Assembly: GCA_015488885.1 (NCBI GenBank) | Contig: WFMW01000003.1 | Coordinates: forward strand, 1-48,822 | DNA from: Gammaproteobacteria bacterium | GTDB taxonomy: Bacteria; Pseudomonadota; Gammaproteobacteria; SZUA-229 | Direction of reading: 5' to 3' | DNA: 48,822 nucleotides | In this document: positions 2,312-13,366 of the stretch, piece by piece | Layout of the letters: the number at the start of each line of letters is the position of its first letter | Numbering within the stretch: the stretch's first letter is position 1 | The notes under the pieces: model-generated | Told to the model about the DNA's origin: nothing | The model's input: only the letters and a program-made list of their open reading frames with translations | Databases searched by the model: none | Made by a program: the position numbers and the translations under genes

Positions 2312-3025
2312 CTATGATGATTTATATTGCCTTCGGCCCGTGGTAACCAGGCCTATCAAGCCGATTGACAACAGTGCCAGTATGCCTGGTTCGGGTACTG
2401 TTTCGTATTGAATTGCGCTGATATAGAATTGTTCACCAATAAGATTAGGTGATTGACCGTTAAAATATGAGATATTAAAGGAATTATTTCTGCTAACACT
2501 TGTATGTATATTATACAAAAAATCCGCGTTTCTTTTAGCGATGGCATCAGCAAGGGTGCCATTGCCACTACTGCGTGAGGCATCAAAGTTGCTGGCACTG
2601 AACGTATAATTAACGCCGTCAATATTTATTGTATTGCCTACAAGGCTGTAGTCAGAATCATGATTGTTATTAAACCAGATACCAGTAATCATGATATTGC
2701 TATCCCATTTCATATGAACCGATTCACCAGTCGCTACATTATCATCACTCGAAGGGTTGCACTGGTTGTTATTATTGATATCCATACAGGAACCTAAACC
2801 GCCATTGGCTACGCTTGCTCCATACTTCGAATCCATATAGGCATACTGATTTGGGTCATTATCTCTGGTAGATGAGGCGGTAATTTTCAGGCCCGGATAA
2901 TTGAGTGTGCTGTATCCTCTCTCATTAGAATTGGCGTCGGCTTTGAAGTCAATTAGTGTTGCATATGCCGAACCGGTTAGGGTAAACAGAAATGTAAAAA
3001 TAACAAATTTTTTAAGTTGTTTCAT
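2312..3025 (-). CDS. PEP-CTERM sorting-domain secreted protein
   Basis: This 237-residue exported protein has an N-terminal signal peptide (KKFVIFTFLFTLTGSAYA, cleavage after about residue 22). A Ser/Asn-rich, low-Cys body has little recognisable similarity to anything I know. At the C-terminus is a textbook PEP-CTERM tag: VPEPGILALLSIGLIGLVTT, then the basic tail GRRQYKSS. Exosortase recognises such tags, cleaves at or near the PEP motif and releases or anchors the protein at the cell surface together with exopolysaccharide. The exosortase gene is not in this window. A sigma-54 promoter lies 45-60 bases upstream (3070-3085), matching the known RpoN-dependence of many PEP-CTERM genes. The biological role of the body is unknown; biofilm or floc matrix is the usual guess. 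Confidence 0.88.
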   Translation of the reverse strand: MKQLKKFVIFTFLFTLTGSAYATLIDFKADANSNERGYSTLNYPGLKITASSTRDNDPNQYAYMDSKYGASVANGGLGSCMDINNNNQCNPSSDDNVATGESVHMKWDSNIMITGIWFNNNHDSDYSLVGNTINIDGVNYTFSASNFDASRSSGNGTLADAIAKRNADFLYNIHTSVSRNNSFNISYFNGQSPNLIGEQFYISAIQYETVPEPGILALLSIGLIGLVTTGRRQYKSS

Positions 3026-3069
3026 GATGTCGAGTCTTCATAAATTAATGTAATGATATATTGGTTGTA

Positions 3070-3085
3070 TGCAATCCATGTGCCA
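3070..3085 (-). promoter_or_regulatory. Sigma-54 (-24/-12) promoter of the PEP-CTERM gene
   Basis: Read on the minus strand the sequence is TGGCACATGGATTGCA. The consensus TGGCACG-N4-TTGCW is matched at every fixed position except the base after TGGCAC. GG and GC are exactly 10 bases apart. The predicted start of transcription gives an untranslated leader of roughly 30 bases before the ATG at 3025. PEP-CTERM systems often carry the PrsK/PrsR two-component pair, whose regulator acts with sigma-54, so this fits. Confidence 0.8.
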
Positions 3086-3187
3086 TTCTTTTTAGCGGCA
3101 TAATATAACTATAAAAAACAATGGCTTATGATATTATTCAATATTGAGTAATTATAAATTTTTCCTGAACTGTAAAAATCTATGACA

Positions 3188-3224
3188 CTGAATCATTGCT
3201 TAATGCAAGTAGTCATTCATTCAG
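3188..3224. promoter_or_regulatory. Nested inverted repeat, candidate activator site for the sigma-54 promoter
   Basis: CTGAAT (3188-3193) and ATTCAG (3219-3224) enclose TTGC (3196-3199) and GCAA (3205-3208). The element lies about 105-140 bases upstream of the -24/-12 site, the distance usual for an enhancer-binding protein. No known consensus was matched. The remaining bases between the PEP-CTERM gene and 3380 show no gene. Confidence 0.3.
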
Positions 3225-3379
3225 GATATGCGTATGGAGCTGATAAATGTATAACTATCAACAACTTATTATGTGGCGATGACTTACCCGGCTTGATGTA
3301 AAAAGCGTAATAAATATCGACATTTTTCATCAATCTGATACGCTACGAGATTACTGCTGATGCTTTGTTAAAATTCATT

Positions 3380-3423
3380 CCGGCTTTCAGCCGTAACACG
3401 AAGCCACCGTCTTTAGTCGGTGG
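3380..3423. repeat. Two adjacent hairpins at the 3' end of the glycosyltransferase gene
   Basis: CGGCT-TTC-AGCCG (3381-3393) and CCACCG (3404-3409) pairing with CGGTGG (3418-3423) are separated by 10 bases. The stop codon of the leftward glycosyltransferase gene sits in the loop of the second hairpin. There is no U-run on either strand. On the plus strand the arrangement resembles the 3' ends of IS200/IS605 elements and their associated RNAs, but no tnpA or tnpB coding remains are visible beside it. A plain transcription end for the glycosyltransferase gene is the simpler reading. Confidence 0.45.
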
Positions 3424-4570
3424 AGTATTCATTGCTGGTGGAAATTTTAACCAGCTGATTGTACAGTCGCTGGTAATTTTCTGCCGTTTGCCGGGAAGAG
3501 TAATGTTGCTTGACTCGATCAAAGGCATGCTGCGTTAGTTTCTGATGTTGTTTCGGGTGAGTAATCAGTTGCTGGATTGCTTCAGCAAATGTTTCCGGTT
3601 GATGTTCATGTATCAATATCCCGCATTTCCCCTGATCCAGTAAATGCGGAATGCCGCCCACTGCATGGGCAATAATGGCTGTTTTCAGATACATGGCTTC
3701 GAGCAGGATCATCGGCAGGCCTTCGTGGTCGGATGTCATCAGCAGTATATCCAGTGTCTGTAAAGCGGTAGCCATATCATCACAATGACCTTCAAAGTGG
3801 ATGTAATCGTCTGCCGATGCTGCGGTTACCTGTTGCTGCAGGGAATTTGACAATGGGCCATCGCCATAGATATAAAAATCAACCGATAATTCCGGGTGTT
3901 GTTGTTTGAGACAAACTGCGGCCTGAATAAACAGGTCCACACGCTTAACCGGTGCCAGTCTGCCGGCAATGCCTACGCGGTAATGTCGTTTGCCAGTTTC
4001 GTTGTTTGCTGATGTTGTCGCTGGCAAGGTGTCGGTATCAATACCATTTTCAATGGTTTTAATATGACTTTCCGGATATTTTCTGGCCAGTTTTTCTGCC
4101 AGATCCGCAGCAACAGCAATGATATAACGCTGGTAATAACGGCCACAAAGCCAGTCCAGAAAAAAGATAATATGTTTATGTAATTTGTACACTGCGGCGG
4201 GGTGTTCGGCGGCACCATGTTGTGTGCGCAGGGAAGGGATATGTCCACATCGCCAGGCAGCTATACTACCAAGGATATTTTCTTTTAGCCGGTGCGTATG
4301 GATAATGTCAGGTTGTATTGCACGCACGGTTTTTATCATCTGCCTGAGGATTTGTGCACTGTTTAAGCTTGCCTCGTCGATAACTGTTACATCAATACCT
4401 GTATCACGTAGCTTTTGTTCTAATTTTCCATGGTTGAGTAAGAGAATATGGACTATAGTTCCTGTATGTTTCCTGAGCGCACTGGCAAGCGTATAGAGCT
4501 GTACTTCAGCGCCTGCCCAGAGATCGCCGGAAGCAATATGTAATACCTTGACGGGGTGATTTTTATCCAT
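3413..4570 (-). CDS. GT4-family glycosyltransferase
   Basis: This 385-residue retaining glycosyltransferase has a GT-B fold. The N-terminal Rossmann half has the GAEVQLYTLA acceptor loop at about residues 20-29, and the C-terminal half has GRLAPVKR (203-210, donor phosphate binding) and the E-x7-E motif at Glu283 and Glu291 within HEGLPMILLEAM. It should move a sugar from a nucleotide donor to a lipid-linked or growing polysaccharide on the inner face of the membrane. It has no signal peptide or membrane segment. It is divergent from the GT2 gene at 4702, and the 131 bases between carry a 13-bp tandem duplication. Neighbouring GT2 and DegT genes suggest a small exopolysaccharide or surface-glycan locus. 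The donor and acceptor cannot be read from sequence. Confidence 0.9.
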   Translation of the reverse strand: MDKNHPVKVLHIASGDLWAGAEVQLYTLASALRKHTGTIVHILLLNHGKLEQKLRDTGIDVTVIDEASLNSAQILRQMIKTVRAIQPDIIHTHRLKENILGSIAAWRCGHIPSLRTQHGAAEHPAAVYKLHKHIIFFLDWLCGRYYQRYIIAVAADLAEKLARKYPESHIKTIENGIDTDTLPATTSANNETGKRHYRVGIAGRLAPVKRVDLFIQAAVCLKQQHPELSVDFYIYGDGPLSNSLQQQVTAASADDYIHFEGHCDDMATALQTLDILLMTSDHEGLPMILLEAMYLKTAIIAHAVGGIPHLLDQGKCGILIHEHQPETFAEAIQQLITHPKQHQKLTQHAFDRVKQHYSSRQTAENYQRLYNQLVKISTSNEYSTD

Positions 4571-9691: not shown

Positions 9692-10042
<351 letters not shown>

Positions 10043-10065
10043 GTTAACCATTGAGGAGATTTGAA

Positions 10066-11376
10066 GTGAAAAAATTTCGTAGATTATTTAACCTGCCGAT
10101 GGTGTTGACAACAGGCACGTTGGCATTACTGCCTTCACTGGCACAGGCAGCAGACAAACTGGATAGTGGTGATACTGCGTGGATGTTAACATCAACTTTG
10201 CTGGTTTTGTTGATGACCATTCCTGGCCTGTCGTTATTTTATGCGGGTATGGTGCGCTCTAAAAATGCACTGTCAGTGATGATGCAATGTTTTGCGATTA
10301 CCTGCATGGTAACGCTGATATGGGTAATATATGGCTATAGCATGGCATTCGGTGACGGCGGATCGATGAATTCGTTTGTTGGCGGTATGGGTAAGGCATT
10401 CATGGCTGGTGTCGGTGTCGATACATTGTCAGGCACGATTCCTGAAACCGTGTTCTCCATGTTCCAGCTTACCTTTGCCATTATTACCCCAGCTTTAATT
10501 GTAGGTGCTTTTGCCGAGCGCATGAAGTTTTCTGCCATGCTCTGGTTTATGGGTATCTGGGTCACTGTCGTCTATTTCCCGGTTTGTCACTGGGTGTGGG
10601 GTGGCGGCTGGCTGGCAGATAAAGGCGTTCTGGACTTTGCGGGTGGGACGGTTGTACACATTAATGCTGGTGTGGCTGCACTGATGGCTGCTCTGGTTAT
10701 TGGCAAACGCAAAGGTTATCCGGGCACCGCCATGCCTCCGCACAACTTGATGTTCACCGTTGTTGGTGCTGGTCTGTTGTGGGTAGGCTGGTTCGGTTTC
10801 AATGCCGGTAGTGAACTAGCTGCTGACGGCACGGCTGGTATGGCAATGGCAGTGACTCAGGTTGCTACGGCGGCGGCGGCTCTGGCGTGGATGTTTGCTG
10901 AGTGGATAGCTCACGGGAAACCAACAACGCTGGGTATTGCTTCAGGTGCGGTTGCTGGTCTGGTGGCTATTACCCCGGCATCGGGCTTTGTTGGCCCTAT
11001 GGGTGCGATTGCCATCGGCATAACAGCGGGTGTGGTTTGTTTCCTCTCAGCTACCAAGCTGAAACGTATAATCGGTTATGACGACAGTCTGGATGCGTTT
11101 GGTGTGCATGCTGTCGGCGGTATCATCGGTGCCCTGTTGACGGGTATCTTTGTTGCCTCTTCTCTGGGTGGTGTTGGCTTAAAAGAAGGTATCACAATGG
11201 CGCAGCAGTTTGGTACTCAGGTACTCGGCGTGAGCGCTACGATTGTGTATGACGCCATCGCAAGCTTTATCATTCTTAAAGTTATTGATGCTGTTATTGG
11301 TCTGCGTGTGACTGCGGATGAAGAAACAGAAGGTCTGGATCTGGTGTTGCACGATGAACGCGCTTATGACCTCTAA
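10066..11376 (+). CDS. amtB: Ammonium transporter AmtB (first copy)
   Basis: This ammonium channel of 436 residues begins with a signal peptide-like segment (PMVLTTGTLALLPSLAQA), followed by about eleven membrane helices. It is a homotrimer in the inner membrane. Pore features seen are the Phe-gate regions FQLTFA and WFGFNAGS, the Asp and His of FAGGTVVHINAG (first pore His) and the second His of FGVHAVGG. The C-terminal tail EETEGLDLVLHDERAYDL binds GlnK. Start chosen as the GTG at 10066, with GAGGAG 7 bases upstream; a TTG at 10051 would place the start inside that ribosome-binding site. A strong terminator follows at 11495. Confidence 0.95.
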   Translation: MKKFRRLFNLPMVLTTGTLALLPSLAQAADKLDSGDTAWMLTSTLLVLLMTIPGLSLFYAGMVRSKNALSVMMQCFAITCMVTLIWVIYGYSMAFGDGGSMNSFVGGMGKAFMAGVGVDTLSGTIPETVFSMFQLTFAIITPALIVGAFAERMKFSAMLWFMGIWVTVVYFPVCHWVWGGGWLADKGVLDFAGGTVVHINAGVAALMAALVIGKRKGYPGTAMPPHNLMFTVVGAGLLWVGWFGFNAGSELAADGTAGMAMAVTQVATAAAALAWMFAEWIAHGKPTTLGIASGAVAGLVAITPASGFVGPMGAIAIGITAGVVCFLSATKLKRIIGYDDSLDAFGVHAVGGIIGALLTGIFVASSLGGVGLKEGITMAQQFGTQVLGVSATIVYDAIASFIILKVIDAVIGLRVTADEETEGLDLVLHDERAYDL

Positions 11377-11494
11377 TCTGGTTATCTGTGGTGTTCTTTC
11401 AAAAGCACACGGATGTGCTGCTATTTAGCTGCAAACAGTATGAATATAACTATTTATAATTAAACAGCAATAACATATCCTTTGATAATGTATT

Positions 11495-11526
11495 GGCCGA
11501 GTACGTAAGTACCCGGCCTTTTTTTG
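11495..11526 (+). terminator. Rho-independent terminator after amtB1
   Basis: GGCCG-A-GTAC (11495-11504), a GTAA loop, then GTAC-C-CGGCC (11509-11518) form a ten-step stem with one A/C mismatch. A run of Ts (11519-11525) follows directly. Confidence 0.92.
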
Positions 11527-11589
11527 TTCAGCCAGGTATGAATATGCCGCCTGGTCATCACCACATCTATTTCATTCAGGTGCTGTTTT

Positions 11590-11631
11590 CACATTTTTGG
11601 TGCATATTTCATCTTGCACATTTTTGGTGCA
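11590..11631 (+). promoter_or_regulatory. Two NtrC-like sites upstream of glnK2
   Basis: TGCACATTTTTGGTGCA (11615-11631) is a full palindromic match to the NtrC type, and CACATTTTTGGTGCA (11590-11604) is a nearly complete one, 27 bases upstream. The last GGTGCA plus AGC at 11638 also has GG and GC ten bases apart, so a -24/-12 element may overlap the right site, but its bases fit the sigma-54 consensus poorly. No clearer promoter was found before glnK2 at 11700. Confidence 0.65.
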
Positions 11632-11672
11632 CTTTAAGCAAATGTGTGGTAAAAGATGTCTCTGAAATGTAA

Positions 11673-12038
<366 letters not shown>

Positions 12039-12070
12039 GTGGTTAATGATAAGTTGTTAAAGAGTAAAAA

Positions 12071-13366
12071 ATGATGAAAAAGATAAATAGTAAATATTTT
12101 CTGACGGCCTTATTGTTACTGGTGCCTCTGGCTGCTCAGGCAAAATCAGCGGATAGTGGTGATACGGCATGGATGTTAACATCTACGGCATTAGTGTTAT
12201 TTATGACATTGCCGGGGCTGGCATTATTTTATGGTGGGCTGGTACGGGGAAAAAATGTTCTCTCGGTATTAATGCAGTGTTTTGCTATTGCCTGCGCGGT
12301 GTCAATAGTATGGGTGGTTTATGGTTACAGCCTGGCATTCGGTGATGGCGGTAGTATGAATGCATGGATTGGCGGGCTACACAATGTTTTTCTGGTTAAT
12401 GTAGCACATGATAGTTTAACCGGCAGCTTGCCCGAATCGGTTTTTATTATGTTTCAGATGACTTTTGCCATTATTACGCCTGCGCTGATTATTGGCGGTT
12501 TTGCTGAGCGGGTGAAGTTTTCGGCCATGCTGGTGTTCAGCATTTTATGGTTAACCGTTGTCTATATTCCTGTTTGTCATTGGGTCTGGGGTGGTGGTTG
12601 GCTAGCAGATAAAGGGCTGCTGGATTTTGCTGGAGGAACGGTTGTGCATATAACCGCCGGGGTGTCAGCCGTTATCTGTGCCATAGTGATTGGTGAGCGT
12701 AAAGGTTTTCCTGCAACGCCAATGATGCCGCATAATATGACCATGACGGTCACCGGGGCAGGTATGCTCTGGGTAGGCTGGTTTGGTTTTAATGCGGGTA
12801 GTGCACTGGCAGCAAATACGGATGCCGGTATGGCCATGCTGGTTACCCATATCAGTGCTGCCTGTGGGGCGATGACCTGGAGTTTTCTGGAGTGGTATAA
12901 ATATGGTAAACCCAGCGCCCTGGGTCTGGTTACCGGTATGGTGGCTGGTCTGGGTACCATTACACCCGCATCCGGTTTTGTCGGGCCTGCAGCTGCCATG
13001 TTTATCGGTATGAGCGCGGGGATTATCTGTTTCTTTGCTACCGGATTTATTAAACAGTCACTTAAAATAGATGATTCACTGGATGTGTTTCCAGTGCATG
13101 GTGTGGGAGGGATGTTGGGAACCTTTCTTGCCGGTATATTTGTTGCCTCAAGTCTGGGTGGTACCGGTCTGGCGAACGGGGTAAGTATAGGTTCTCAGGT
13201 AACGGTACAGTTAACCGGTATCCTTGCCACGGCTATCTGGGCAGGCATAGCAACCTTTGTTTTGCTGAAGATTGTCGATGCCATAATCGGTTTGCGTGTT
13301 TCCAGTGAGGCAGAAACAGAAGGTCTGGATATTAGTGAACATGATGAAAGAGGCTATATTCTATAA
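12071..13366 (+). CDS. Ammonium transporter AmtB (second copy)
   Basis: This is a 431-residue Amt-family channel: signal-like N-terminus KYFLTALLLLVPLAAQA, about eleven helices, the first pore His in GGTVVHITAG, the second in VFPVHGVGG, Phe gate WFGFNAGS, and a GlnK-binding tail AETEGLDISEHDERGYIL. It differs from the first copy at many places, so the pair is not a fresh duplication. Two ATGs lie side by side at 12071 and 12074. It ends 62 bases before the convergently read small protein gene, with no clear terminator. Confidence 0.94.
   Translation: MMKKINSKYFLTALLLLVPLAAQAKSADSGDTAWMLTSTALVLFMTLPGLALFYGGLVRGKNVLSVLMQCFAIACAVSIVWVVYGYSLAFGDGGSMNAWIGGLHNVFLVNVAHDSLTGSLPESVFIMFQMTFAIITPALIIGGFAERVKFSAMLVFSILWLTVVYIPVCHWVWGGGWLADKGLLDFAGGTVVHITAGVSAVICAIVIGERKGFPATPMMPHNMTMTVTGAGMLWVGWFGFNAGSALAANTDAGMAMLVTHISAACGAMTWSFLEWYKYGKPSALGLVTGMVAGLGTITPASGFVGPAAAMFIGMSAGIICFFATGFIKQSLKIDDSLDVFPVHGVGGMLGTFLAGIFVASSLGGTGLANGVSIGSQVTVQLTGILATAIWAGIATFVLLKIVDAIIGLRVSSEAETEGLDISEHDERGYIL

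Follow-up and report, generated by a model that had tools for sequence, protein, structure and literature searches.

Haft et al. (2006; PMC1569441) described an element ahead of proteobacterial PEP-CTERM genes that consists of a 17-nt motif ending in TTTACA (motif 1), a spacer and a sigma-54 motif (motif 2). The spacer measured 62.8 ± 10.6 nt (limits 32 and 92), motif 2 lay 23–221 nt from the start codon, and the element was present before 99 of 167 such genes. Its occurrence matched that of PrsR, PrsK and PrsT, and PrsR was proposed as the protein that binds it. For a related promoter, that of pepA in Aquincola tertiaricarbonis RN12 (PMC9850573), a need for RpoN was shown and TGGCAC/CTGCTT was mapped at the start site.

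The DNA examined here (“the window”) is the whole 48,822-nt stretch of contig C3, from an assembly of 2.63 Mb in 72 contigs. Ahead of a PEP-CTERM gene it contains a promoter that is very probably sigma-54-dependent and activated by PrsR (Table 1). This assignment to the regulon is well supported but not new, the promoter class having been described in 2006. The locus shares with the Haft element a 17-mer that ends in TTTACA (TGTCATAGATTTTTACA), the -24(GG)/-12(GC) of motif 2 (TGGCACATGGATTGCA), both distances (85 nt of spacer, 44 nt from motif 2 to the start codon), a position outside coding sequence, where a large intergenic region precedes a PEP-CTERM gene, and prsK, prsR and prsT in the genome. 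It differs in having a spacer well above the mean of 62.8 nt, A rather than G after the GTC of the box, and no exosortase that we could find. With Aquincola pepA it has in common a PEP-CTERM gene, a TGGCAC -24 element, a predicted upstream enhancer and PrsK/PrsR, a likeness claimed for the promoters only; for pepA both RpoN dependence and the start site come from measurement, whereas here they are predicted. An upstream activator box, a -24/-12 promoter and an AAA+ activator with a GAFTGA loop are shared with NtrC-type, enhancer-dependent sigma-54 promoters generally. Unlike in those, the box in promoters of the present type lies close to the promoter, and its spacings come in steps of about one helical turn.

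Table 1. Positions of the promoter elements, the downstream gene and neighbouring candidates in the window.
Feature	Positions	Strand	Basis or remark
PEP-CTERM surface/export protein	2312..3025	-	237 aa, N-terminal signal peptide
PEP-CTERM sorting signal (VPEPGILALLSIGLIGL...RRQ)	2330..2401	-	PF07589 match above cut-off, whole-genome search
Sigma-54 -24/-12 promoter TGGCACATGGATTGCA (motif 2 of Haft 2006)	3070..3085	-	Exact TGGCACN5TTGCW match, intergenic
Box-to-promoter spacer, 85 nt	3086..3170	-	In 83–88 class; within Haft 2006 range of 32–92
Candidate PrsR-binding box TGTCATAGATTTTTACA (motif 1 of Haft 2006)	3171..3187	-	15.0 bits, top in window
Inverted repeat CTGAAT-N25-ATTCAG, judged a chance feature	3188..3224	-	Shuffles; 0/112 related promoters
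Weak possible second box TGTCGATATTTATTACG	3306..3322	-	6.2 bits, rank 10 in window

Downstream gene

The protein encoded immediately downstream had been called PEP-CTERM in an initial annotation of this DNA, and it does match PF07589 (23.3 bits, above the cut-off), with the signal at its C-terminus. Its signal peptide was read by eye. Apart from these two segments the protein resembles no known family, and a scan of genome_contigs returned no relatives, so conservation was judged on the promoter element rather than on orthologous promoters. An otherwise unrecognised surface protein is assigned to a defined regulon, and the coordinates for a footprint are exact.

Regulators and regulon in the source genome

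The initial annotation proposed that the gene belongs to a PrsR regulon; in all likelihood it is part of a PrsK/PrsR regulon. Both regulators were found when searched for, together with prsT and rpoN: prsR, prsK and prsT, which score 711, 729 and 343 bits and are all above the curated cut-offs, lie next to one another on contig C18 beside polysaccharide export genes, and rpoN (491 bits) lies on contig C12. PrsR contains a GAFTGA loop and a Fis-type helix-turn-helix.

To count the element genome-wide, box and promoter were combined in a strict pattern, TTTACA-N58-88-TGGCA-N6-WTGCW, with the reversed pattern as control. Three matches were obtained in 2.63 Mb (contigs C3, C19 and C59), all of them before PEP-CTERM genes, for which the probability under random placement is roughly 2e-10; the reversed pattern gave none in this genome. 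A fourth PEP-CTERM gene, on contig C65, has a version truncated by the contig end, in which TGGCACACTAGTTGCT is preceded at 95 nt by TTTTACA, right where the contig stops; a fifth gene follows the fourth by 38 nt and is probably co-transcribed with it. Checking the other PEP-CTERM genes, as had been suggested, therefore gave a divided answer: four of the ten in the genome carry the element, a fifth probably shares a transcript with one of these, and the remaining five have no such element before them, which counts against the PrsR reading.

The same ten genes differ in their tails. Proteins with a VPVPAAxWLFGSG tail mostly lack the PrsR element; those with a PEPxILALLS tail all have it. The two tail types may possibly mark two sorting or regulatory classes.

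Note that about nine other proteins with sigma-54 activator domains are encoded in the genome, all scoring below the PrsR cut-off, and one of these roughly ten activators other than PrsR might drive a genuinely sigma-54-dependent promoter here. We consider this improbable, since the box beside the promoter is the PrsR-associated motif, all three of its genome-wide occurrences precede PEP-CTERM genes, and among relatives box matches follow the presence of PrsR. In 40 genomes (the source genome and its relatives), the 17 with PrsR had 32 pattern matches and the 23 without it had 7; the reversed pattern gave 2 matches over all 40.

Activator box and sigma-54 site

The motif 1 profile (consensus TGTCGNNNNNNTTTACA) was built from other species only. 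The site in the window was excluded, and one site from the source genome may be present only by way of the relatives' loci. Scored with this profile, TGTCATAGATTTTTACA was the best of all window positions on both strands. One position counts against the PrsR reading, namely the A that follows GTC, which in other species is usually a G. Other such promoters often have a second copy of the box upstream, on the same strand (34 versus a background of about 3), as Haft et al. (PMC1569441) had already noted; the candidate at 3306–3322 is not significant by itself and is too weak to be claimed as one.

The sigma-54 site proved to be as first described, one fixed position short of the longer consensus (TGGCACG, A for G) and covering nt 45–60 upstream of the ATG at 3025. 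To the shorter consensus TGGCACN5TTGCW it has zero mismatches and is the sole exact match in the window. In the whole genome there are ten exact matches, this one included, with six inside long ORFs and only four outside, so a sigma-54 site alone is weak evidence. When two mismatches were allowed, the number of matches in the window equalled that in shuffled sequences. Chance or codon-driven matches therefore do occur, and the site might be one of them, with the gene transcribed by other means. This is very improbable: the site is exact, intergenic, at the right distance from the ATG and accompanied by a box at a preferred spacing, and no sigma-70-like site was found upstream of the gene. The idea of a sigma-70 promoter was dropped on that ground, and an RNA element in the leader was dropped in the absence of any Rfam match in the window.

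The inverted repeat CTGAAT-N25-ATTCAG had been put forward as a candidate activator site and possibly as a PrsR site then thought unknown. The repeat itself exists, with its 25-nt loop and at a distance that would suit an enhancer, but a role as activator site is hardly credible and was dropped: perfect 6-bp inverted repeats with loops of up to 30 nt number 5 in the 260-nt region against 4.4 ± 2.7 after shuffling, and the 112 related promoters examined all lack the motif. The PrsR motif had in fact been defined by Haft et al. in 2006, and the candidate for it at 3171–3187 directly adjoins the 3′ arm of the repeat.

Spacing across species

For other species we used the pattern GTCGN6TTTACA-N58-88-TGGCAN6WTGCW, in which the range of spacings allowed is continuous. 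Of 369 genomes of the class, 41 contained it (control matches, 0). In the named genome collection it occurred in at least 120 stretches, most of them from Alpha-, Beta- and Gammaproteobacteria and some from Nitrospira and others. ORFs downstream of the element in other species matched PF07589 in 65 of 91 cases.

Spacings between box and promoter fall into classes of about 63, 74 and 85 nt, about 11 bp apart, and do so across phyla (loci L111–L190 and L231–L260). Among 112 sites, 65 are at 60–65 nt, 23 at 73–76, 22 at 83–88 and 2 elsewhere. The 59 sites from the 369-genome search, a set that overlaps partly with the 112, divide into 31, 13 and 15 in the three classes with none elsewhere. The best period is 11.2–11.3 bp, near one turn of DNA, and the observed periodicity was reached by none of 2000 uniform simulations. 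Promoters of the source genome fit the same phase (85 nt in the window; 62, 64 and 95 nt in its three sisters). Classes one turn apart suggest helical phasing. Haft et al. (PMC1569441) reported the spacing as mean, deviation and limits and did not mention phasing, and we found no other report of it, short of a full literature search. Quantised spacing is a strong constraint, and a testable one, on the way in which PrsR gets to RNA polymerase: the box has to be on one face of the helix.

Proposed mechanism

The sequence elements, their genome-wide co-occurrence, the presence of the regulators and the phasing were observed; binding, looping, the start site and the signal are inferred. PrsK would probably phosphorylate PrsR, an activator of the NtrC type that combines a receiver, an AAA+ part with GAFTGA and a Fis-type DNA-binding part. 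PrsR would then bind at 3171–3187, which is two turns of the helix upstream of the position seen most often, contact RNA polymerase–sigma-54 at TGGCACATGGATTGCA by way of a short loop of DNA on the same helix face, and open the promoter, with transcription predicted to start near 3059. Its expression would be turned on along with that of the PEP-CTERM genes carried by contigs C19, C59 and C65; a joint switch with three or four sister genes is most likely.

Exosortase

A search for an exosortase gene (EpsH/XrtA), also suggested initially, came back empty: the source assembly gave no PF09721 match, nor any hit at E<=10 when searched with a profile made from ten relatives. In the same search, 19 of 40 genomes had an exosortase. 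The result was counted against our preferred explanation as regards the sorting half of the system, and it raises the question of what handles the PEP-CTERM proteins in this genome. In relative G006 (locus L106) the gene order is prsT, sulfate adenylyltransferase, a WecA-like gene, exosortase. On contig C18 of the source genome (L063/L064), sulfate adenylyltransferase is followed by polysaccharide chain-length and export genes, with no contig break. It is possible that the gene was lost; it is also possible that it lies in an assembly gap elsewhere, given the 72 contigs.

Two relatives, G019 and G021, are likewise PrsR-positive with box matches and exosortase-negative. Tentatively, and as a rather unlikely possibility, the PrsK/R/T regulon may have outlived the loss of exosortase in these two genomes and in the source genome, the tails being processed by an unrecognised enzyme or serving as plain membrane anchors. 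For G019 and G021 “regulon” here means PrsR plus the box, PEP-CTERM genes having been counted only in the source genome.

Other features of the window

A perfect hairpin, GAAGCCACCGTCTTTAGTCGGTGGAG, is located at 3400–3425, as a single copy in the window with one similar hairpin in locus L242; we take it to be reminiscent of the ends of IS200/IS605 elements. At 193–360 there is a short, apparently truncated fragment like the N-terminus of an IS200-like (Y1/REP-associated) transposase. At 427–1031 a Gp49-like (HigB-type) toxin gene precedes a small ORF with a helix-turn-helix, a probable toxin-antitoxin pair. Two tandem ammonium transporter genes are found at 9695–13366, each behind an ORF of 111–115 aa that is possibly PII-like, by analogy with amt-glnK pairs.
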